Below, piece after piece: positions 7,335 through 16,998 of a stretch of 64,000 nt of DNA; the stretch's first letter is position 1, and each line of letters starts with the position of its first letter. Source of the DNA: Thauera sp. GDN1 (GTDB lineage: Bacteria; Pseudomonadota; Gammaproteobacteria; Burkholderiales; Rhodocyclaceae). Below the pieces are notes generated by a model. The model was not told where the DNA came from. It saw only the letters and a list, made by a program, of their open reading frames with translations, and made no database searches. The stretch is from contig NZ_CP097870.1 in assembly GCF_029223545.1 (NCBI RefSeq), forward strand, positions 806,001-870,000, read 5' to 3'. A program made the position numbers and the translations under genes.

Positions 7335-8441
7335 ATGCGCATCCGTACCGTCCTGATCGCGCTGGCTGGCGCCAGCCTGCTCGCATCCTGTTCGCCGCCC
7401 CCGTCGGGGGCCGCGCCGCCGCGCGCGGTGCTGGTGCGGACCGTCGACGGGGCGGCGGCGCCGCCGGCGGTGCAGCTGTACTCGGGCGAGGTGCGTGCGC
7501 GCATCGAGACCGACCTCGGCTTCCGGGTCGGCGGCAAGCTGGTCGAGCGCAGGGTCGATGTCGGCACCGAGGTCGCCGCGGGCGCGCTGCTGGCGCTGCT
7601 CGACCCCGCCGATGCGCACCTGGCCGCCAGCGCGGCGCAGGCGGCGCTGACCGCCGCCGAGGCCGACCTGGCGCTGGCGCGCACGGAACACGCCCGCGCG
7701 CAGGAGCTGGCCGCGCGCCAGTTCGTGTCGTCCTCGGTGCTCGACGCCCGCCGCACCGCGCTGCAGGCCGCCGAGGCGCGCTTGCGCCAGGCGCGCGCGC
7801 AGGCCGACGCCGCGGCCAACCAGACCGGCTACACGCGGCTGGAAGCACCGGCCGCCGGCGTCGTCACCGCGGTGTTCGCCGAGCCGGGGCAGGTGGTGGG
7901 CGCCGGGCAGCCGGTGTTCCGCCTCGCCCGTCCCGACGAGCGCGAGGTCCTGATCCACGTTCCCGAGGGCCGCGCGGCGGCGCTGCGTCCCGGCACGCCG
8001 GCGCGGGTGCGGACCTGGGCGGCGCCGGACCGCGAGTACGCCGCCAGCGTGCGCGAGGTGGCGCCGGCCGCCGATCCGGCCACCCGCACCTACGCGCTGC
8101 GGGTGGCGGTGGCGCAGGCCGACGCCGGTCTGGCGCTGGGGGCCACCGCGAGCGTGGCCTTCGCCGCCTCCGCCGACGGCGGCGTGCTGCTGCCGCTGGC
8201 CGCGGTCACGCGCGCGCCGGGCAGGCCCGATGGCGGCACGGTGTGGGTGGTCGGCGACGACGACACGGTCCGCCCGCTCGCGGTCGAGGTGCTCGCCTGG
8301 CGCGAGGACGGCGCCCTGCTGCGAGCCGAGCTGCCGGCCCGGACACGGCTGGTGGTGGCGGGCGTGCAGACCCTGGTCGAGGGCGAGACGGTGCGCGCGG
8401 TCGAGGAAGGCGCGCCGGTGCGGCTGGATGTCGCGCGATGA
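7335..8441 (+). CDS. RND efflux periplasmic adaptor lipoprotein (MFP/HlyD family)
   Basis: This is the membrane-fusion subunit of a tripartite efflux pump, linking the inner-membrane RND transporter to an outer-membrane channel. The 368-residue product begins with a lipoprotein signal ending in LLASC (C19), then a biotinyl-lipoyl-like half (GFRVGGKLVERRVDVG), an Ala-rich alpha-hairpin coiled coil around residues 90-150, the second lipoyl half (TRLEAPAAGVV), and beta-barrel and membrane-proximal domains. The ATG at 7335 is chosen because it begins the signal peptide; a longer frame upstream would mask it. Its stop codon overlaps the start of the pump gene. The substrate is not evident. Confidence 0.92.
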   Translation: MRIRTVLIALAGASLLASCSPPPSGAAPPRAVLVRTVDGAAAPPAVQLYSGEVRARIETDLGFRVGGKLVERRVDVGTEVAAGALLALLDPADAHLAASAAQAALTAAEADLALARTEHARAQELAARQFVSSSVLDARRTALQAAEARLRQARAQADAAANQTGYTRLEAPAAGVVTAVFAEPGQVVGAGQPVFRLARPDEREVLIHVPEGRAAALRPGTPARVRTWAAPDREYAASVREVAPAADPATRTYALRVAVAQADAGLALGATASVAFAASADGGVLLPLAAVTRAPGRPDGGTVWVVGDDDTVRPLAVEVLAWREDGALLRAELPARTRLVVAGVQTLVEGETVRAVEEGAPVRLDVAR

Positions 8442-11400
8442 AGCACCCCGACGAGAACCCGATCGGCCGCGGCCCCTTCAACCTGTCGGAGTGGGGGCTG
8501 ACCCACCGCTCGCTGGTGCTGTACTTCCTGATCGTCAGCACCCTGATCGGCATCTTCTCCTACACCCGCCTCGGCCAGTCCGAGGATCCGCCCTTCACCT
8601 TCAAGGTCATGGTGGTGCGCGCCGAATGGCCGGGAGCGAGCGCGCGCGAGATGGAGCAGCAGGTCACCGACAAGATCGAGAGGAAGCTGCAGGAGATCGC
8701 CCAGGCCGACGTGATCCGCAGCTACTCCAAGCCGGGCGAGACCATGGTGTTCTTCCTGGTCAAGGACAGCACCCGCTCGCGCGACATCCCCGAGATCTGG
8801 TACCAGGTGCGCAAGAAGATCGGCGACATCGCCCACACCTTCCCGACCGGGGTGCGCGGGCCGTACTTCAACGACGAGTTCGGCGACACCTACGGCAACC
8901 TGTTCGCGCTGGTGGGCGAGGGCGTCGGCCACGCCGAGCTCAAGCGCCACGCCGAGGCGATCCGCAGCGAGCTGCTGCGGGTGAAGGACGTGGCCAAGGT
9001 CAGCTTCTTCGCCGAGCAGCCGCAGCGCGTGTTCATCGAACTCTCCAATACCAAGCTCGCCACCTTCGGCCTGCGCCTGGACGACATCGTCGGTGCGCTG
9101 GCGAAGCAGAACGCCGAGACCGGCGCCGGCTTCTTCGAGACCGCGGAGGATCGCATCTGGCTGCGTCCGAGCGGCCAGTTCGAGGACCTCGACGCCATCC
9201 GCGCTACCGTGATCCGTGCCGGCGGACGCAGCTTCCGCCTGGGCGACGTGGCCGAGGTGCGCCGCGGCTACGCCGATCCGCCCGCCGAGCGCCTGCGCTA
9301 CATGGGGCAGGAGGCGCTCGGCATCGGTGTGTCGATGCGCGCCGGCGGCGACATCGTCGCCCTCGGCCGCCAGCTGGATCAGGCGGTGGACAAGATCGTG
9401 TCCCAGCTGCCGGCCGGCATCCGGCTGGAGCGCGTGGCCGACCAGCCGCGCGCGGTCACGCGGGCGGTCGACGAGTTCGTCAAGGTGCTGGCCGAGGCGG
9501 TGATCATCGTGATGGCGGTGAGCCTGCTGTCGCTGGGCCTGCGCACCGGCATCGTGGTGCTGGTGATCATCCCGGTGGTGCTGGCGATCACCTTCATGTT
9601 CATGCACCTGCTCGACATCGGCCTGCACAAGATCTCGCTGGGTGCGCTGATCATCGCCCTCGGCCTGCTGGTGGACGACGCGATCATCGCGGTCGAGATG
9701 ATGGCGAGCAAGATGGAGCAGGGCTGGGGCCGGGTGCGCGCCGCCAGCTACGCGTGGACCTCGACCGCGATGCCGATGCTGTCCGGCACCCTGGTGACCG
9801 CGGCGGGCTTCCTGCCGGTGGCGCTGGCGGCGTCCTCGGTGGGCGAATTCACGCGCTCGATCTTCCAGGTCACGGTGACCGCGCTGCTGGTGTCGTGGAT
9901 CGCGGCGGTGCTGTTCGTGCCCTACCTCGGTTACCACCTGCTGCCCGACTTCAGCAAGCGCGCGGGCCAGCCCTCGGCGCTGGCACGCCTGGTCGGGCGG
10001 GTGTGGCCGGCGCTCGGGCGGCGGCTGGCGGAACGCGACATCCACGCCAATGAGCAGCACGACGAGTTCGCGATCTACCACACGCCCTTCTACAGGCGCC
10101 TGCGCGCGCTGGTGAATGCCTGCGTCGAGTTCCGGTGGACGGTGATCGTGCTCACGGTGGCGATCTTCGCCGCCTCGCTGTTCGTGTTCGCGCGCTTCGT
10201 CCCGCAGCAGTTCTTCCCCGATTCGACGCGGCCCGAGCTGCTGGTCGACCTGCGCCTGGCCGAAGGCGTCTCGCACCAGGCCACCGAGGTCGCGGTGAAG
10301 CGGCTGGAGGCCTTCCTCGACGATCAGGACGGCATCGACAATTTCGTGGCCTGGGTCGGCAGCGGCAGCCCGCGCTTCTACCTGCCGCTCGACCAGCAAC
10401 TGCCGCAGACCAATTTCGCCCAGTTCGTGATCCTGACCAACGGCCTGGCCGAGCGCGAGGCCTTGCGCGCGAAGCTGATCCGGCTGTTCGAGGACGAGGC
10501 CTGGCCCTTGCGCGGCATCGTCGTGCGGCTCGAGAACGGCCCGCCGGTGGGCTTCCCGGTGCAATACCGGGTGAGCGGGCCGGACTTCGACGCGCTGCGC
10601 CGCCAGGCGCACGCGGTGGCCGCGGCGATGCGCGGCAATGCGCACCTGTCCAACGTGCATCTGGACTGGGAGGAGCCGTCCAAGGTGGTGCGCCTGGCCA
10701 TCGACCAGGACAAGGCGCGCCTGCTCGGCGTGTCCACCCAGGACATCTCCAGCCTGCTCGCGACCTCGCTGCAGGGCATGACGGTGACCCAGTTCCGCGA
10801 GGGCACCGAGACCATCGCCGTGGTGCTGCGCGGCGCGGAATCCGAGCGCACCCACCTGTCCCTGCTCGCCGACCTCGCCCTGCCGGTGGCGGGCGGGCGC
10901 AGCGTGCCGCTGGCGCAGGTGGTGCGCGTCGAGCACGATTTCGAGACGGGCGTGATCTGGCGGCGCAACCGCATCCCCACCGTGACCGTGCGCGCCTCGC
11001 TGTACGACGGCACCCAGCCCGCGGTGGTGGTCGGCCAGCTCGCCGCCGAGATGGCGCGCATCCGCGCCGACCTGCCGCTCGGTTACCGGCTCGAGGTCGG
11101 CGGTGCGGTGGAGGAGAGCGCCAAGGGCAGCGGCTCGGTGGGCGCGGGGATGCCGGTCTTCATCCTCACCGTGCTGACCGTGCTGATGCTGCAGCTCAAG
11201 AGCTTCTCGCGCACGATCATGGTGGTGCTGACCGCGCCGCTGGGCATGATCGGGGTGACCGCCTTCCTGCTCGCCTTCGGCAAGCCCTTCGGCTTCGTCG
11301 CCCTGCTCGGCACGATCGCGCTGTCGGGCATGATCATGCGCAACTCGGTAATCCTGGTGGATCAGATCCGCCAGGACGTCGAGGCCGGGCGCACGCAGTG

Positions 11401-11617
11401 GGAGGCGATCGTCGAGTCCGCGGTGCGCCGCTTCCGCCCGATCATGCTCACCGCCGCGGCGGCCATCCTCGCCATGGTGCCGCTGTCGCGCAGCACCTTC
11501 TTCGGGCCGATGGCGGTGGCGATCATGGGTGGGCTGACGGTGGCGACCGTGCTCACCATCCTGTTCCTGCCCGCGCTGTACGCCGCGTGGTATCGGGTGA
11601 AGCCGGGCGCGGCCTGA
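8438..11617 (+). CDS. RND-family efflux transporter, inner-membrane pump
   Basis: The 1059-residue protein has the length and duplicated layout of AcrB/MexB-like pumps: an N-terminal membrane helix (LVLYFLIVSTLIGIFSY), a large periplasmic loop, a bundle with the proton-relay helix LGLLVDDAIIAVEMM, then a second periplasmic loop and membrane bundle. The ATG at 8438 overlaps the adaptor stop as ATGA, so the two are translationally coupled. The sequence style (LxQSEDPPFTFK near the N-terminus) resembles uncharacterised RND pumps rather than the CzcA metal group. No linked outer-membrane factor exists here; TolC, 5.7 kb downstream, could serve, but that is inference. Confidence 0.93.
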   Translation: MKHPDENPIGRGPFNLSEWGLTHRSLVLYFLIVSTLIGIFSYTRLGQSEDPPFTFKVMVVRAEWPGASAREMEQQVTDKIERKLQEIAQADVIRSYSKPGETMVFFLVKDSTRSRDIPEIWYQVRKKIGDIAHTFPTGVRGPYFNDEFGDTYGNLFALVGEGVGHAELKRHAEAIRSELLRVKDVAKVSFFAEQPQRVFIELSNTKLATFGLRLDDIVGALAKQNAETGAGFFETAEDRIWLRPSGQFEDLDAIRATVIRAGGRSFRLGDVAEVRRGYADPPAERLRYMGQEALGIGVSMRAGGDIVALGRQLDQAVDKIVSQLPAGIRLERVADQPRAVTRAVDEFVKVLAEAVIIVMAVSLLSLGLRTGIVVLVIIPVVLAITFMFMHLLDIGLHKISLGALIIALGLLVDDAIIAVEMMASKMEQGWGRVRAASYAWTSTAMPMLSGTLVTAAGFLPVALAASSVGEFTRSIFQVTVTALLVSWIAAVLFVPYLGYHLLPDFSKRAGQPSALARLVGRVWPALGRRLAERDIHANEQHDEFAIYHTPFYRRLRALVNACVEFRWTVIVLTVAIFAASLFVFARFVPQQFFPDSTRPELLVDLRLAEGVSHQATEVAVKRLEAFLDDQDGIDNFVAWVGSGSPRFYLPLDQQLPQTNFAQFVILTNGLAEREALRAKLIRLFEDEAWPLRGIVVRLENGPPVGFPVQYRVSGPDFDALRRQAHAVAAAMRGNAHLSNVHLDWEEPSKVVRLAIDQDKARLLGVSTQDISSLLATSLQGMTVTQFREGTETIAVVLRGAESERTHLSLLADLALPVAGGRSVPLAQVVRVEHDFETGVIWRRNRIPTVTVRASLYDGTQPAVVVGQLAAEMARIRADLPLGYRLEVGGAVEESAKGSGSVGAGMPVFILTVLTVLMLQLKSFSRTIMVVLTAPLGMIGVTAFLLAFGKPFGFVALLGTIALSGMIMRNSVILVDQIRQDVEAGRTQWEAIVESAVRRFRPIMLTAAAAILAMVPLSRSTFFGPMAVAIMGGLTVATVLTILFLPALYAAWYRVKPGAA

Positions 11618-11726
11618 GCCGGATCGGGCGCGCGGTGCCGGGCGGGCCGACGCGAGCCCCCGCTTTGGTGTAGCCTTCGCCCTTTTTCGCCCCGTCCGCG
11701 CCGACGGTCGGGGCCGGGTTGCGAGG

Positions 11727-12455
11727 ATGACGCAGGGCTTGCCGCGAACGCGTTTCAACAGTGCCGGGCTGGTGAGGCTGCTCGCCGAACTCGCGGTGGC
11801 CGAGGTCGCGGACACGAAGCAGGATTTCGCCGCGCGCCTGAGCGAGTGGCTGGACCTGAAGGACGCCCTGGCCCTGTACTCGGCGCTGAACTCGGCCGCA
11901 GCGCGACCGGCTGCGCGCGCCATGCCGGCGGCGTTGCTGCGCGCGGAGCTGGCACGGGTGCGCGCGACGCTCGGCGCAGCCGTCACCGCCGGCGCGGACC
12001 TGCCGACGCCGCTGGCGAACGCCACGCCCGCGGAGGCGGCCGATTTCGCGCCCTTCCATCGCCACTACCTCGCACATCAGCGCGCGATGGCAGCGGGCAT
12101 CGCGCCGCTGCGGGCCGCGGTCCGCACCGCGCTGGGGCGGCATTCGGCTGCGCTCGGGCAGCTCGCCGCGCTCGACGCGGTGATGGAGCAGGCGCTGGCG
12201 GCGCGCGAGGCGAATCTGCTGGCCACGGTGCCGGTGCTGCTCGGCAAGCGCTTCGCGCAGCTTCTCGAAGCGCATCGACAGGCACGCGAGGCCGCGCAGC
12301 CCGACGACCCCGCGCAATGGATGCAGGCGGGTGGCTGGCTCGCGCGCTTCTGCGCCGACATGCAGCGTGTGCTGCTCGCCGAGCTGGAGCTGCGCCTGCT
12401 GCCGGTCGCGGGGCTGCTCGCGGCACTGGACAAGGAATCGACGGAACTCCAATGA
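11727..12455 (+). CDS. DUF3348-family protein, first gene of a stator-like cluster
   Basis: I recognise this as a DUF3348-type protein; no function is known to me. The 242-residue product is soluble, Ala/Leu-rich and nearly all helical, with no signal peptide or membrane segment. It opens with a conserved-looking block (RTRFNSAGLVRLLAELA). The ATG at 11727 is used because conserved sequence starts a few residues later; its ribosome site is poor, with GAGG directly abutting the start. The TGA overlaps the start of the next gene by four bases, so it is coupled to the MotA/ZorA-like gene. It is probably a cytoplasmic partner of that membrane complex; the role is inference. Confidence 0.8.
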   Translation: MTQGLPRTRFNSAGLVRLLAELAVAEVADTKQDFAARLSEWLDLKDALALYSALNSAAARPAARAMPAALLRAELARVRATLGAAVTAGADLPTPLANATPAEAADFAPFHRHYLAHQRAMAAGIAPLRAAVRTALGRHSAALGQLAALDAVMEQALAAREANLLATVPVLLGKRFAQLLEAHRQAREAAQPDDPAQWMQAGGWLARFCADMQRVLLAELELRLLPVAGLLAALDKESTELQ

Positions 12456-14758
12456 ACAGAAGCTTGAGCGTGGCCGCCTTCCTGGTGGGGGCGGCCGTGG
12501 TGGGGTGGGTGGGAGCCGGCTACGTCGGACTCGGTCCGCTGGCCCTGGGCATGACGGCGCTGATCGGTGTCGTGTATCTGAGCGGCGCGCTGGAACTGCT
12601 GCGTTTCGATCGCGAGACCGCGGCGCTGCAGCGCGCGCTGGACACGATCCCGGCAGAACTCACGGATGCCGCCGCGTGGGTGCGCGCGCTGCCGCCCTCG
12701 CTGCAGAACGCGGTGCGCCTGCGCCTGGAGGGCGAGCGCGTCGGCCTGCCCGGTCCGGCGCTGACGCCCTACCTGGTCGGCCTGCTGGTGCTGCTGGGCA
12801 TGCTCGGCACCTTCCTCGGCATGGTGATGACGCTGAACGGCGCGGTGATCGCGCTCGAGACCACCACCGACCTGCACACCATCCGCTCCTCGCTGGCGGC
12901 GCCGGTCAAGGGCCTGGGCGTGGCCTTCGGGACCTCGGTCGCCGGCGTGGCGGCGTCGGCCATGCTGGGGCTGATCTCCGCGCTGTGCCGCCGCGCCCGG
13001 CTGCAGGCTTCGCAGGTGCTGGACGGCCGCATCGCGCGCGAGCTGCGCGGCTTCTCGCTCGCGCAGCAGCGCCAGGAGGCCTTCCAGGCGGTGCAGGAGC
13101 AGGCGCGCACGCTGCCGGTGCTGATCGAGACCCTGCAGGCGATGATGGCGCAAAGCGAGCGCCAGAGCCGCGAACTGCACGAGCGCATGGCGAGCGAGCA
13201 GCAGCGCTTCTACGCGGATGCGCGCGGCAGCTACGCGGAACTCGCCGCGTCGGTCGATGCGTCCCTGAAGGCGAGCCTGACCGAGAGCGCGCGCCTGGCC
13301 GGGCAGACGATCCAGCCCCTGGTGGCGGACACCATGGCCGGCATCGCCCGCGAGACGACGGCGCTGCAGCAGCGCGTGGCCGATGGCGTGCAGGCCCAGC
13401 TCGATGGCGTGTCGCAGCGCCTGGATGCGGCGGTGACGACCGTGGCCGAGACCTGGACGACGGCGCTCGCCCGCCAGGAACGCAGCAGCACGGTGCTCGG
13501 CGACAAGCTCGACGCCTCCTTCGCCGCCTGGAACAGCGGTTTCGAGCAGCGCGCCACGGCCCTGCTGGCCTCGGTCGGCGAGGCGCATGGCGAACTGCGG
13601 GCCGAGCTGGCCGCCACCGCCGCCGCGCTCGCCGAACAGACCGCCGCGCTGCACGGCCGCGTCGCCGGGTCGGTGCAGGCCCAGCTCGACGGCCTGATCG
13701 CCCGCTTCGGCGGCGCCGCCGACGGCGTGACCGAGACCTGGACGCAGGCGCTGGCCAGCCACGAACGCAGCAACCAGGCGGTCGCGGCCGAGTTGCAGCG
13801 TGCGCTGCAGTCCTTCGCCGAAACCTTCGCCCAGCGCTCGGCCGCCCTCGTCGACCAGGTCGGCGCCTCGCTCACCGCGCTGCAGGCCGAACTGGCCACG
13901 CGCGAGGCCGCCCGCCAGCGTGCGCAGACCGAGGCGCTGCAGGCGATGGCCGCGTCGCTGCATGGCGAGTGGCAGCAGATGAGCGAGCAGGCCGGCAGTC
14001 GTCAGCAGCGGGTCGTCGATGCGCTGGAACGGACCGCGCAGCGCCTCGCCGCCACCACCGAGGCGCACGCCAGCCGCACGATCGAGCACATCGCCGGCCG
14101 CCAGCAGGCGATCGTCGACCGCCTCGACGAAACCGCGCGCACGCTCGCTGCCAGCACGCAGGAGCAGGCCAACCGCAGCATCGAGCAGGTCACTGCGCTG
14201 ATGCAGACCGCCGCCGAGGCCCCGCGCGCCGCGGCCGAGGTGATCGGCCAGCTGCGCCAGGAGCTGTCGGCCAGCATCGCTCGCGACAACGCCGCGCTCG
14301 ACGAGCGCAACCGCATCATGGAAACCCTGCGCGAGCTGCTGGACGCGATCAACCACGCCTCCGGCGAACAGCGCCAGGCCATCGACGCCCTGGTGGCGTC
14401 CTCGGCCGCAGCGCTGGAGCGCGCCAGCGCGGGTTTCGTCGCGCGCATCGAATCCGAGTCCGGCCGCCTGGCCGACACCGCCGGCGAGGTCGCCGGCGGC
14501 GCGGTCGAGGTCGCCAGCCTGGCCGAGGGCTTCGGGCTGGCGGTGCAGCTGTTCAGCGACTCGAACGACAAGCTCATGGCCGGCCTGCAGCGCATCGAAG
14601 GCGCGCTGGAGAAGGCGATGACGCGCAGCGACGAGCAGCTCGCCTATTACGTCGCCCAGGCGCGCGAGCTGATCGACCTCAGCCTGATGTCGCAGAAGCG
14701 GATCGTCGACGACCTGCAGCAGCTGCCCGGCCGTTCCGCCGCGGCGGGTGAGGCGTGA
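12452..14758 (+). CDS. DUF802 protein: MotA/ZorA-like channel subunit with very long coiled-coil tail
   Basis: The 768-residue protein has four predicted membrane helices (about 6-23, 25-48, 104-130 and 150-178). Helices 3 and 4 carry the MotA/TolQ/ExbB/ZorA-type patterns LGMLGTFLGMVMTL (T120) and GLGVAFGTSVAGVAASA (T161), where small and Thr residues line the proton path. From about residue 180 to the end is an uninterrupted Ala/Gln/Glu/Arg helical tail with internal repeats: RVAxxVQAQLDG at 308 and 403 (period 95) and RQQ-type 33-residue repeats at 517 and 550. This layout matches ZorA of Zorya rather than MotA. It overlaps both neighbours by four bases. It would form the pentameric part of a 5:2 motor; that assembly is inference. 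Confidence 0.85.
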   Translation: MNRSLSVAAFLVGAAVVGWVGAGYVGLGPLALGMTALIGVVYLSGALELLRFDRETAALQRALDTIPAELTDAAAWVRALPPSLQNAVRLRLEGERVGLPGPALTPYLVGLLVLLGMLGTFLGMVMTLNGAVIALETTTDLHTIRSSLAAPVKGLGVAFGTSVAGVAASAMLGLISALCRRARLQASQVLDGRIARELRGFSLAQQRQEAFQAVQEQARTLPVLIETLQAMMAQSERQSRELHERMASEQQRFYADARGSYAELAASVDASLKASLTESARLAGQTIQPLVADTMAGIARETTALQQRVADGVQAQLDGVSQRLDAAVTTVAETWTTALARQERSSTVLGDKLDASFAAWNSGFEQRATALLASVGEAHGELRAELAATAAALAEQTAALHGRVAGSVQAQLDGLIARFGGAADGVTETWTQALASHERSNQAVAAELQRALQSFAETFAQRSAALVDQVGASLTALQAELATREAARQRAQTEALQAMAASLHGEWQQMSEQAGSRQQRVVDALERTAQRLAATTEAHASRTIEHIAGRQQAIVDRLDETARTLAASTQEQANRSIEQVTALMQTAAEAPRAAAEVIGQLRQELSASIARDNAALDERNRIMETLRELLDAINHASGEQRQAIDALVASSAAALERASAGFVARIESESGRLADTAGEVAGGAVEVASLAEGFGLAVQLFSDSNDKLMAGLQRIEGALEKAMTRSDEQLAYYVAQARELIDLSLMSQKRIVDDLQQLPGRSAAAGEA

Positions 14759-15423
14759 GCATGGACGACGTGCACGGCGGCGACGGCGCCATCGAGCAGT
14801 CCGCACCGGCCTGGGGCGTGTTCGGTGACCTGATGTCGGGCCTGCTGGGTGCCTTCGTGCTGATCCTGGTCGGCGTGCTCGGCGTGCAGCTCGAACTGGC
14901 GACCACGCTCGAGGCCGAGGTGCAGAAACGCCGCGTCGAGGAGCAGCGCCGCGAGGCGCTGGAGAAGGCGCTCGCGGTGCCGCTGGCGAGCGGACGGGTG
15001 ACCCTGAACGACGGCCGCATCGGCATCAGCGGCAGCGTGCTGTTCGCGCTCAACTCGGCCGAGCTGCAGCCCGAGGGGCGCCAGGTGCTGCAGAGCCTGG
15101 CGCCGCCGCTGGCCGCCTACCTCGCCACTCGCGAGGAGCTGCTGATGGTGAGCGGCTTCACCGACGACCGTCCGGTGCTCGACAGCAACCGCCGCTTCAC
15201 CGACAACTGGGACCTGTCCGCGCAGCGCGCGCTGACCGTGACCCGGGCGCTGATCGAGGAGGGCGTGCCCTCGTCGGCGGTGTTCGCCGCCGCCTTCGGT
15301 TCGGAGCAGCCTGTGGCGTCGAATCTCGATGAGGAAGGCCGCGCGCGCAACCGTCGGGTGGAGATGGCGCCGGTGCCGCGGAGCGCGCAGCAGGCGGCGG
15401 CCATGGACGCGACCGGCGGATGA
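14755..15423 (+). CDS. MotB/ZorB-like OmpA-domain protein with membrane-embedded aspartate
   Basis: The 222-residue protein has a short N-terminus, one membrane helix beginning WGVFGDLMSGLLGAFVL, a helical linker, and a C-terminal OmpA/MotB peptidoglycan-binding domain (about 75-205) with NWDLSAQRA and RARNRRVEM. The Asp at residue 25 in the FGDLMS motif occupies the place of the proton-binding Asp of MotB and ZorB. The GTG at 14755 overlaps the previous TGA; an ATG at 14761 with GGTGAGG upstream is an equally good start and would make this Asp residue 23. It pairs naturally with the preceding MotA/ZorA-like protein to form an ion-driven, wall-anchored complex. Confidence 0.88.
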   Translation: MSMDDVHGGDGAIEQSAPAWGVFGDLMSGLLGAFVLILVGVLGVQLELATTLEAEVQKRRVEEQRREALEKALAVPLASGRVTLNDGRIGISGSVLFALNSAELQPEGRQVLQSLAPPLAAYLATREELLMVSGFTDDRPVLDSNRRFTDNWDLSAQRALTVTRALIEEGVPSSAVFAAAFGSEQPVASNLDEEGRARNRRVEMAPVPRSAQQAAAMDATGG

Positions 15424-16157
15424 GCGCGACGCAGGGGCACGATCGGCCGGTGGCCGGCGTGGAGCCGGGTGGCGAGCTGGCGGCCCGGCTCGAGGCCCTG
15501 CACACCTGCGGTGCAGCGCGCTTCGATGCGGTCGGCGTGCGCGTCATCGAGGCCATGCTGCGCCGGCTCGACGCCTTCGACGGCGCCGCGCGCACGGCCC
15601 TGGTGCGCAAGATCGAGCGCCGCCTGGCCGCCGTGCGCGACCGCTTCGAACGCGCCGGCGGCGAGGCGGTGTTCGCGGCCGGGCGTGGACGGGAGCGGGG
15701 AGGACCGGCGCAGCGCGAGGGCACAGGCGGACCACTGGCCGAGCTGCTCGCCCATGTGGCGCGGCAGGCGGGCACGCCGCTTGCGCCCGAGCTGGCGGGT
15801 GGCGGCGCTCCGGCGCCGCTCGCCGAGCTGAAGGTGCTGCGCCATTTCCGCGGTAGCTGGTCGCGGCTCAGCCTGGAGCAGCAGCTGGCGCGCGCCCTGG
15901 CCCAGGCCCCGGACAACGCCGGGCCGCTCAATTCGCATTACCTGGCGCTGCAGGCGCTGATACGCATGCGCGAGCTCGCGCCGCAGTATCTGGAGGCCTT
16001 CGTGACCCATGTCGACGCCTTGCTGTGGCTGGAGCGGGCCGACCCCGGACGCGGCACGGCGCAACGCGGGGCGGGACAGAAGGGGGCCGCGCGCAAGGCC
16101 GACGCCCGGAGCCCGCGGGGGCGGACACGGAAGGCGGACAGCGGCAAGGCCGGCTGA
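15420..16157 (+). CDS. DUF2894-family protein, last gene of the stator-like cluster
   Basis: I recognise the product as DUF2894-like; no biochemical role is known to me. It has 245 residues, no signal or membrane helix, a conserved helical N-terminal part (about 20-75, rich in charged helix), a conserved centre (LKVLRHFRGSWSRLSLEQQL, about 140-160, and LNSHYLALQALIRMREL near 180) and a Lys/Arg/Gly-rich disordered tail of about 40 residues that could touch nucleic acid. The ATG overlaps the OmpA gene stop by four bases. Being the last gene of a tightly coupled quartet, it is probably a cytoplasmic partner or effector of the membrane motor; this is inference. Confidence 0.78.
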   Translation: MSATQGHDRPVAGVEPGGELAARLEALHTCGAARFDAVGVRVIEAMLRRLDAFDGAARTALVRKIERRLAAVRDRFERAGGEAVFAAGRGRERGGPAQREGTGGPLAELLAHVARQAGTPLAPELAGGGAPAPLAELKVLRHFRGSWSRLSLEQQLARALAQAPDNAGPLNSHYLALQALIRMRELAPQYLEAFVTHVDALLWLERADPGRGTAQRGAGQKGAARKADARSPRGRTRKADSGKAG

Positions 16158-16300
16158 GGCCGCGGCGACGCTCCTTGCGACGTGCGCGCCCCGACCGCAA
16201 GGTCCGCGGATGGGGCCTCACCGGCCCTGCTATTGTCTTGCGGCTGCGGATCGCGGCGCAGCATCTGCGCTAGAATGACGCGGTTTTGCCTCTATGGACA

Positions 16301-16344: not shown

Positions 16345-16998
16345 ATGAACTTCGAGAAAGCGCGCTTCAACATGGTCGAGCAGCAGATCCGCCCCTGGGA
16401 GGTGCTGGATCAGGACGTGCTCGACCTCCTGATGACGGTCAAGCGCGAGGAATTCGTTCCCGCCGCGTATCGCGAGCTGGCCTTCACCGAGGTGGAGATC
16501 CCGATCGGCTGCGGTCAGGTCATGCTGAAGCCGGTGATCGAGGGCAAGGTGCTGCAGGCGCTGCGCCTGGCGAAATCGGACTCGGTGCTCGAGGTCGGCA
16601 CCGGTTCGGGCTACTTCGCCGCGCTGCTGGCGGCGCGTACCGAGTGGGTGCGCACGATCGAGATCGAGCCCGAGCTGGTGAAGCTGGCAGGCACCAACCT
16701 GGCGCGCAACGGGGTGGAGAACGTCGTCGTGGTGCAGGGTGACGGCATCGGCGGCTGGGCCGAGCGCGCGCCCTACGACGTCATCGTCGTTTCCGGCGGC
16801 CTGCCCTTCGTGCCGCAGGCGCTGCTCGAGCAGCTCAAGGTCGGCGGTCGCCTGTTCGCCTTCGTCGGCGAGGCGCCGGTCATGAAGGCGCGCCTGGTCA
16901 CCTGCGAGGGCGAAGGCCGCTTCCGCACCGAAGACATCTTCGAGACCGTGGTGCCGATGCTGAAGAACGCACCGCAGCGCGACGGTTTCAGCTTCTGA
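16345..16998 (+). CDS. PCMT-like (protein-L-isoaspartate O-methyltransferase family) methyltransferase
   Basis: The 217-residue protein has a Rossmann methyltransferase fold with the SAM motif VLEVGTGSGYFAALL (about residues 81-95) and the N-terminal PCMT signature MVEQQIRPW. However, the loop that in classical Pcm reads GQTISQP is GQVMLKP here, so repair of isoaspartate is uncertain and another substrate is possible. The ATG at 16345 is chosen for its GGGAG site; an earlier in-frame start adds nine unconserved residues. A rhodanese and tolC follow closely on the same strand, an arrangement I recall from other betaproteobacteria. All three may share the promoter at 16319. Confidence 0.85.
   Translation: MNFEKARFNMVEQQIRPWEVLDQDVLDLLMTVKREEFVPAAYRELAFTEVEIPIGCGQVMLKPVIEGKVLQALRLAKSDSVLEVGTGSGYFAALLAARTEWVRTIEIEPELVKLAGTNLARNGVENVVVVQGDGIGGWAERAPYDVIVVSGGLPFVPQALLEQLKVGGRLFAFVGEAPVMKARLVTCEGEGRFRTEDIFETVVPMLKNAPQRDGFSF

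Follow-up and report, generated by a model that had tools for sequence, protein, structure and literature searches.

We analysed a stretch of 64,000 nucleotides from Thauera sp. GDN1 (contig NZ_CP097870.1, positions 806,001 to 870,000; hereafter the window), and describe here a cluster of four head-to-tail genes on its + strand, at window positions 11727-16157. The first gene, zorG3 (11727..12455, 242 residues), encodes a DUF3348 protein (PF11828, E = 4.1e-76), and is followed by zorA3 (12452..14758, 768 residues), whose product is a MotA-like motor protein with a long helical tail matching DUF802 (3e-25). The third gene, zorB3 (14755..15423, 222 residues), encodes a MotB-like protein with one membrane helix carrying Asp25 and an OmpA peptidoglycan-binding domain (PF00691, 2.3e-18), and the fourth, zorF3 (15420..16157, 245 residues), a DUF2894 protein (PF11445, 1.3e-45). 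Successive genes overlap by 4 bases, ATGA at the first junction, GTGA at the second and ATGA at the third. Such overlaps are also found in relatives of the cluster, at 35 of 42 readable boundaries between genes 1 and 2, 26 of 35 between genes 2 and 3, and only 9 of 31 between genes 3 and 4, counts for which the start codons were chosen by script. An earlier description of the locus made from the DNA letters (the sequence-only reading) had listed the four overlapping genes, the long-tailed MotA-like protein, the MotB-like one with its OmpA domain and Asp25, and the two DUF proteins, all of which are borne out by the open reading frames, Pfam matches and hydropathy.

All four proteins match the PADLOC profiles for Zorya type III, at E-values between 3e-57 and 1e-281 (PDLC00658, 1e-74, for gene 1; PDLC00650, 1.1e-281, for gene 2; PDLC00651, 1.3e-111, for gene 3; PDLC00652, 2.6e-57, for gene 4). 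Judged from these matches, the cluster is very probably a complete and intact Zorya type III anti-phage operon, zorG-zorA-zorB-zorF in the names of PADLOC-DB. Zorya type III was defined by Payne et al. (2021; PMC8565338) on the basis of 6,401 gene pairs with DUF3348 and DUF2894 genes on their flanks, and is listed as Zorya III in a later account (Mariano et al., 2025; PMC11890865). The type III copy with an anti-phage test in print is that of Stenotrophomonas nitritireducens, which in E. coli reduces the plaquing of one or more phages (PMC8565338). The two partner proteins carry interchanged names in these sources, such that ZorF denotes the DUF3348 protein in the text of the 2021 paper and ZorG denotes it in PADLOC-DB; we follow PADLOC-DB throughout (ZorG for DUF3348, ZorF for DUF2894). 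The system is thus already described, and the cluster is an ordinary example of its type. The suggestion that it is a related but distinct motor therefore holds in part, in that the genes encode a long-tailed ZorA/ZorB stator of the Zorya kind, but the system is neither distinct nor new, and on the strength of the PADLOC matches and the published type definition (PMC8565338) we rejected the idea of a novel system.

Hydropathy places the membrane segments of ZorA near its N-terminus, beginning with residues ~3-52, a hydrophobic region long enough for two helices, followed by stretches at ~97-136 and ~154-180, after which the protein is soluble to residue 768. ZorB has a single stretch (19-54) that includes Asp25, the DUF3348 protein has one borderline stretch (215-234), and the DUF2894 protein has none. 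The ZorA motor core, comprising the third and fourth membrane helices (12734..13096, + strand), contains T120, T161 and S162, which are invariant in all 32 aligned ZorA3 sequences, just as Asp25 is invariant in all 28 aligned ZorB sequences (window included in both cases). T120 and T161-S162 align with the corresponding part of the Shewanella type I ZorA in structure 8vvn, a weak match (1.3e-6), and by homology the Ser/Thr ring of ZorA would face the Asp of ZorB. Because the Pfam family MotA_ExbB (PF01618) has no match in gene 2, the identification of this protein as MotA-like rests on the ZorA profiles together with the 8vvn match. A search of solved structures with the ZorB alignment returned nothing at a limit of 1e-20.

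The terms proton-driven and 5:2 are carried over from known Zorya types. In the type I motor (8vvn), sodium is found at conserved Ser/Thr residues, and the type II site is more proton-like (PMC11890865). Type III ZorA keeps the Thr-Ser pair of type I, and the proton should therefore not be assumed as the ion; for the motor in the window, proton-driven is an assumption.

Beyond the motor, ZorA continues into a helical tail of ~580 residues. Conservation along the protein, expressed as the mean majority fraction, is 0.78-0.92 in the motor (residues 97-192), drops to 0.16-0.52 in the middle of the tail (353-576), and rises again to 0.63-0.81 at the tip (577-768; 14180..14755, + strand); gaps were scored as mismatches, so missing blocks account for part of the low values in 353-576. 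The tip also differs in its hydrophobic periodicity, which is 3.57 residues over the last 190 residues as compared to 3.66-3.67 in the mid-tail, the latter corresponding to an 11-residue pattern. When the ZorA alignment was searched against solved structures, the only matches were generic helical bundles such as apolipoproteins, which we set aside.

Aligning the tail of the window's ZorA to itself revealed a tandem module of 95 residues in two copies (residues ~291-385 and ~386-480; 13322..13891, + strand), with 50% identity over 60 residues at a lag of 95, and a score of 134, where 20 block shuffles reached at most 73. ZorA ranges from 586 to 901 residues across 41 type III copies (that of the window included), and a strong tandem duplication of this kind is present in 26 of them. 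The repeated unit is 84 residues long in 13 copies, 95 in 11, the window's being one of these, and 113 in two. The duplication scores of these 26 are 111-267 as compared to shuffle maxima of 44-74 (20 block shuffles each), whereas the remaining 15, with lengths of 586-725 residues, score 31-62, six of them slightly above their own shuffles and at mixed lags. Several of the ZorA lengths step in units matching the blocks, from 641 to 736 residues and from 725 to 809 to 893, with exceptions such as one copy of only 685 residues despite a 95-residue block (L078) and the window's own 768 residues, which include an extra 33-residue repeat. Likewise, the commonest insertions and deletions between pairs of ZorA are of 84 residues (83 pairs), 95 (39), 33 (30), 5 (15), 168 (15) and 29 (13), where the pairs are not independent of each other. 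Block-free copies (e.g. L067 and L053) are nested in clades of block-bearing ones, and the blocks therefore come and go. From these alignments, the length of the type III ZorA tail appears to vary largely by whole blocks placed between a conserved motor and a conserved tip. No mention of tail blocks was found in the available text of the literature on type III Zorya, which does not extend to the structural Zorya study in Nature.

The two partner proteins gave few clues beyond their own families. For DUF3348 we scanned 82 members with Pfam (the window's protein, 60 of 120 listed from 798 found, and 21 from the loci), and found besides the family itself only weak matches in one to four members each, none to a nuclease; among these were MINAR1_N in four members (best 0.001) and GT-C_AftD in two (best 2e-4). 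For DUF2894 the scan covered 88 members (the window's and 87 of 120 listed from 136 found), and here too the additional matches were weak, confined to single members, and none to a nuclease. Profile searches of solved structures with the two families returned nothing credible; the best match for DUF2894, to PscE (0.0068), was taken as chance. Since neither the family scans nor the structure searches gave a nuclease match, we rejected a hidden nuclease in either partner, and more generally the sequence profiles used detect no credible nuclease or other enzyme domain in them. No nuclease is named for Zorya type III in the available text of the literature on the type. One of the relatives, Thauera phenolivorans (G028; loci L041 and L077), has a gene 4 of only 133 residues that matches only residues 105-226 of the window's protein, and which reflects either a truncation or a wrong start, the start having been chosen by script.

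We asked how consistently the four genes occur together by seeking each family separately in 200 genomes drawn evenly from the order, at a completeness limit of 90% and with the GDN1 genome included (limits of 1e-40 for ZorB3, 1e-60 for ZorA3, and 1e-6 for each of DUF3348 and DUF2894). Each of the four was found in eight genomes, the same eight in every case, spanning four taxonomic families. All eight carry the four genes in one locus in the order G-A-B-F, and even at their loose limit DUF3348 and DUF2894 are confined to these carriers. None of the four families was detected at these limits in the other 192 genomes, a count that leaves aside distant ZorA/ZorB relatives. In a second set, a strong ZorA3 match was found in 16 of 29 genomes of the genus, two of eight others in the family and none of 24 others in the order, making 18 carriers. 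From these, 16 loci were retrieved at length, and all show the four genes arranged as G-A-B-F; in two, a contig end cuts into gene 4, and a third is the locus with the short gene 4 described above. Of the 31 loci chosen by their ZorG, five of which also belong to the ZorA3 set, 27 have all four genes, and the remaining four are incomplete only where the contig stops. In the genomes searched, the four genes thus travel as an all-or-none set, and type III ZorA/ZorB without genes 1 and 4, which the sequence-only reading had named as an observation that would speak against it, is not common.

In the window, the operon is flanked on the left by an RND efflux pump gene of the AcrB family (8438..11617, + strand; PF00873, 1.8e-158) and on the right by a pcm-type methyltransferase gene (16345..16998, + strand; PF01135, 8.6e-42), both outside the system. 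Downstream of pcm lie rhodanese and TolC-type genes (rhodanese and OEP matches), which are likewise not members. An open frame of 1311 residues antisense to the pump (8090-12025, - strand) looks like a by-product of high G+C content and no gene. In 14 relatives the pump and pcm are separated by only ~103-149 base pairs without the cassette, and eight of these carry Zorya III elsewhere while six do not carry it. The window and three relatives have zorGABF in a gap of 4.3-4.7 kilobases (kb), and the same arrangement is split over contigs in two further carriers (G005 and G015). These counts come from a survey of 32 genomes from which we excluded the two split carriers, one genome with a pump match of 25% identity and a gap of 77 base pairs (G033), and 11 whose fetched stretch has no pump match upstream of pcm; in G004 and G022 the fetched stretch ends with the contig ~1 kb upstream of pcm. 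By comparison with the empty sites, the inserted segment spans approximately 11618..16245, its ends having been placed by eye. Three genomes from elsewhere in the family, outside the genus (G032, G035 and G036), have the empty site too, and insertion is therefore most simply the derived state. In nine genomes of the genus no matching pump lies upstream of pcm in the fetched stretch (with a contig end in two), so the region varies beyond the Zorya insertion. In six, thiC is found within about 1-3 kb of pcm.

Using flank matches of more than 800 base pairs, we counted at least six Zorya III neighbourhoods in the genus, i.e., at least five besides that of the window: one is shared by G014, G018 and G022 (and on the downstream side only by G003), another by G007, G013 and G016, and G001, G023 (listed as 8% contaminated) and G028 have one each. 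The neighbours at these sites include lysR with ribonucleotide reductase, a pyridoxal phosphate-dependent enzyme, a sigma-54 activator, a short-chain dehydrogenase, a Na+/H+ exchanger and benE. Upstream of zorG lies a T-rich element with a TAGCCT hexamer (11660..11693, + strand), some version of which recurs in 17 of 18 Rhodocyclaceae-type copies (window included), which lie at different sites and diverge in sequence beyond the element. It is absent in L038 and looser in L041, L066 and L081, and the other 25 loci compared have a different sequence upstream of zorG; the comparison was made by eye and without statistical scoring. The element resembles a promoter with TAGCCT as its -10 hexamer, and since it recurs across sites, the operon seems to carry this putative promoter along when it moves.

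These observations bear on whether the cluster could instead be a housekeeping envelope machine, that is, an ion-flow stator doing mechanical work on the envelope with the DUF3348 and DUF2894 proteins as its cytoplasmic parts. Pump, TolC-type and KDO-transferase genes are found nearby in the window, the locus is syntenic and long-lived in some lineages, and the nine gene pairs compared have ratios of non-synonymous to synonymous substitution of 0.17-0.47, as under purifying selection. Nevertheless, we regard this explanation as very unlikely, since 13 of the 29 genomes of the genus have no strong ZorA3 match (10 of these 13 being at least 98% complete), as is the case for the 192 genomes of the order, since in 14 relatives pcm lies next to the pump, with the cassette absent, and the neighbours differ at other sites, and since a type III system protects E. 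coli from phage (PMC8565338). The envelope-gene neighbourhood, which the sequence-only reading had taken as an argument for a housekeeping role, thus loses its force in the face of the empty sites, the differing neighbours elsewhere and the patchy carriage. Nor does the carriage in the genus resemble the near-universal presence expected of an ExbB/TolQ-type stator, membership in which is also not indicated for gene 2 given its lack of a PF01618 match. A separate protein of 416 residues of the MotA/ExbB-like kind (L004:916-2166, - strand; near 976,400-977,600 in the GDN1 genome) gave a weak ZorA match; weak matches of this kind occur in 23 of the 29 genus genomes, whether or not these carry Zorya III, and the protein is probably a housekeeping relative.

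Patchy carriage could also arise if the locus were ancient in Thauera and vertically inherited, with many independent losses and rearranged flanks, instead of being a mobile cassette. In a tree of ZorA, the copies at the window's site (site A; five of the six, G015 being left out) form one clade (support 100/99), as they would after one insertion, and this clade is joined to the copies at site B (100/100). The pcm and thiC trees do not join the site-A and site-B hosts; their weak support leaves room for vertical descent, and the conflict between ZorA and these single-gene host trees is suggestive of transfer between lineages. The empty pump-pcm site in the three genomes of other genera in the family also speaks against vertical descent, as does the occurrence of some copies on plasmids: ZorB relatives were found on 27 of 72,556 plasmid records, seven of which are rated mobilizable and several of which are megaplasmid-sized, while none of 50,697 phage records matched at 1e-20. 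We therefore consider long vertical inheritance unlikely. Empty sites, at least six neighbourhoods, carriage by about half of the genus and the plasmid records fit a movable cassette, and overall the operon resembles a defence cassette of the chromosome that relocates occasionally and may persist for long periods.

Several observations weigh against a defence operon of this kind. Two NCBIfam ZorA models match gene 2 at only 24.5 and 22.9 bits, far from their cut-offs of 100 and 500, and among the best 25 of 42 NCBIfam matches gene 3 is above the cut-off only for a 'hypothetical protein' family. When B. cenocepacia was infected, expression changes in the Zorya I and III operons were confined to the first one or two genes, and the authors do not count Zorya among the systems they call transcriptionally active (PMC12584637). 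The residence of the operon can be long, as seen from the six Thauera at the window's site and from Acidovorax loci with shared flanks; in Ralstonia solanacearum, type III Zorya is reported among the systems present in at least 90% of the genomes of a species (2026 paper, PMC13064858), which would also suit a housekeeping use. Lastly, no defence setting was seen around the operon. Of ten neighbours in the window only pcm matched PADLOC (mad2, 1e-21, in the methyltransferase region), which we read as a shared fold and not as a MADS gene, and ten neighbours of the relatives' copies gave one PADLOC match, to a sigma-54 regulator (limit 1e-20). With these as the sole matches, we rejected a defence-island setting.

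By homology to types I and II, ZorA and ZorB of the window would form an inner-membrane stator, presumably in a 5:2 assembly, clamped to peptidoglycan via the OmpA domain of ZorB. Phage damage to the envelope could then open ion flow past Asp25 of ZorB and the Thr/Ser ring of ZorA, causing ZorA to turn, and the rotating five-helix tail would carry the signal into the cytoplasm. There, the conserved tip would engage the DUF3348 and DUF2894 proteins, which would execute or direct the block of the phage. Because the tip is conserved and the partners co-occur strictly with the motor, we give docking of the two proteins at the tip an even chance. As to what they do there, our guess is that, instead of being enzymes from a known class of nucleases, they are adaptors bound at the tip that capture incoming DNA or act on it.

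The lack of a credible nuclease or other enzyme family in the partners would also fit a depolarising (suicide) channel, in which ZorF and ZorG only gate ZorAB and killing results from ion leak through the stator, with no DNA effector. Such a role is in line with the proposal of Payne et al. (2021) that the two partner proteins regulate ZorAB (PMC8565338). A plain leak, however, has no need for a long tail with a conserved tip, and in Zorya II the effector is the ZorE nickase, so that the motor alone is not the effector there (PMC11890865). We see the depolarising channel as a serious contender, if the less probable one. Returning to partners held at the tip, the block structure of the tail prompts a tentative proposal, which we consider possible while leaning against it: the type III ZorA tail may act as a ruler, a helical spacer of 11-residue repeats in which whole blocks of 84, 95 or 113 residues have been gained and lost independently in several lineages, and whose conserved tip holds the two non-nuclease partners at a set distance from the membrane. 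This would amount to a motor-driven defence without a recognisable nuclease, its reach tuned by the number of blocks.

In summary, the system itself is known, and the value of the cluster lies in the evidence it offers on a poorly understood Zorya type, namely a gene set that is all-or-none in the genomes searched, an insertion with an empty site in relatives, and a tail of largely stepwise length between a constant motor and tip. This makes testable whether tail length relates to the strength or range of defence, and whether the tail tip is where the DUF3348 and DUF2894 proteins act. Among known systems, the cluster shows no difference in kind from the published Zorya type III, having the same four families in the same adjacency (PMC8565338). 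To flagellar MotA/MotB there is distant homology in the MotB/OmpA domain and the MotA-like core, but the MotB models match far below their cut-offs and no MotA model matches among the best 25 of 42 NCBIfam matches. The ~580-residue tail of ZorA is not known from flagellar MotA. With Zorya types I and II, the cluster has in common the ZorA/ZorB motor, the Asp of ZorB, the OmpA domain and the long ZorA tail (PMC11890865), where the flow of ions, the attachment of ZorB to peptidoglycan and the tail of ZorA are all important for defence (PMC11890865). Neither the four proteins nor the ten neighbours scanned in the window match ZorC, ZorD or ZorE, which sets the cluster apart from these types; where they have ZorC, ZorD and ZorE, the cluster has DUF3348 and DUF2894, a replacement that the sequence-only reading had anticipated correctly. 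Finally, whereas in types I and II the components of a given family are described as keeping much the same size (PMC11890865), the size of type III ZorA is not well conserved.

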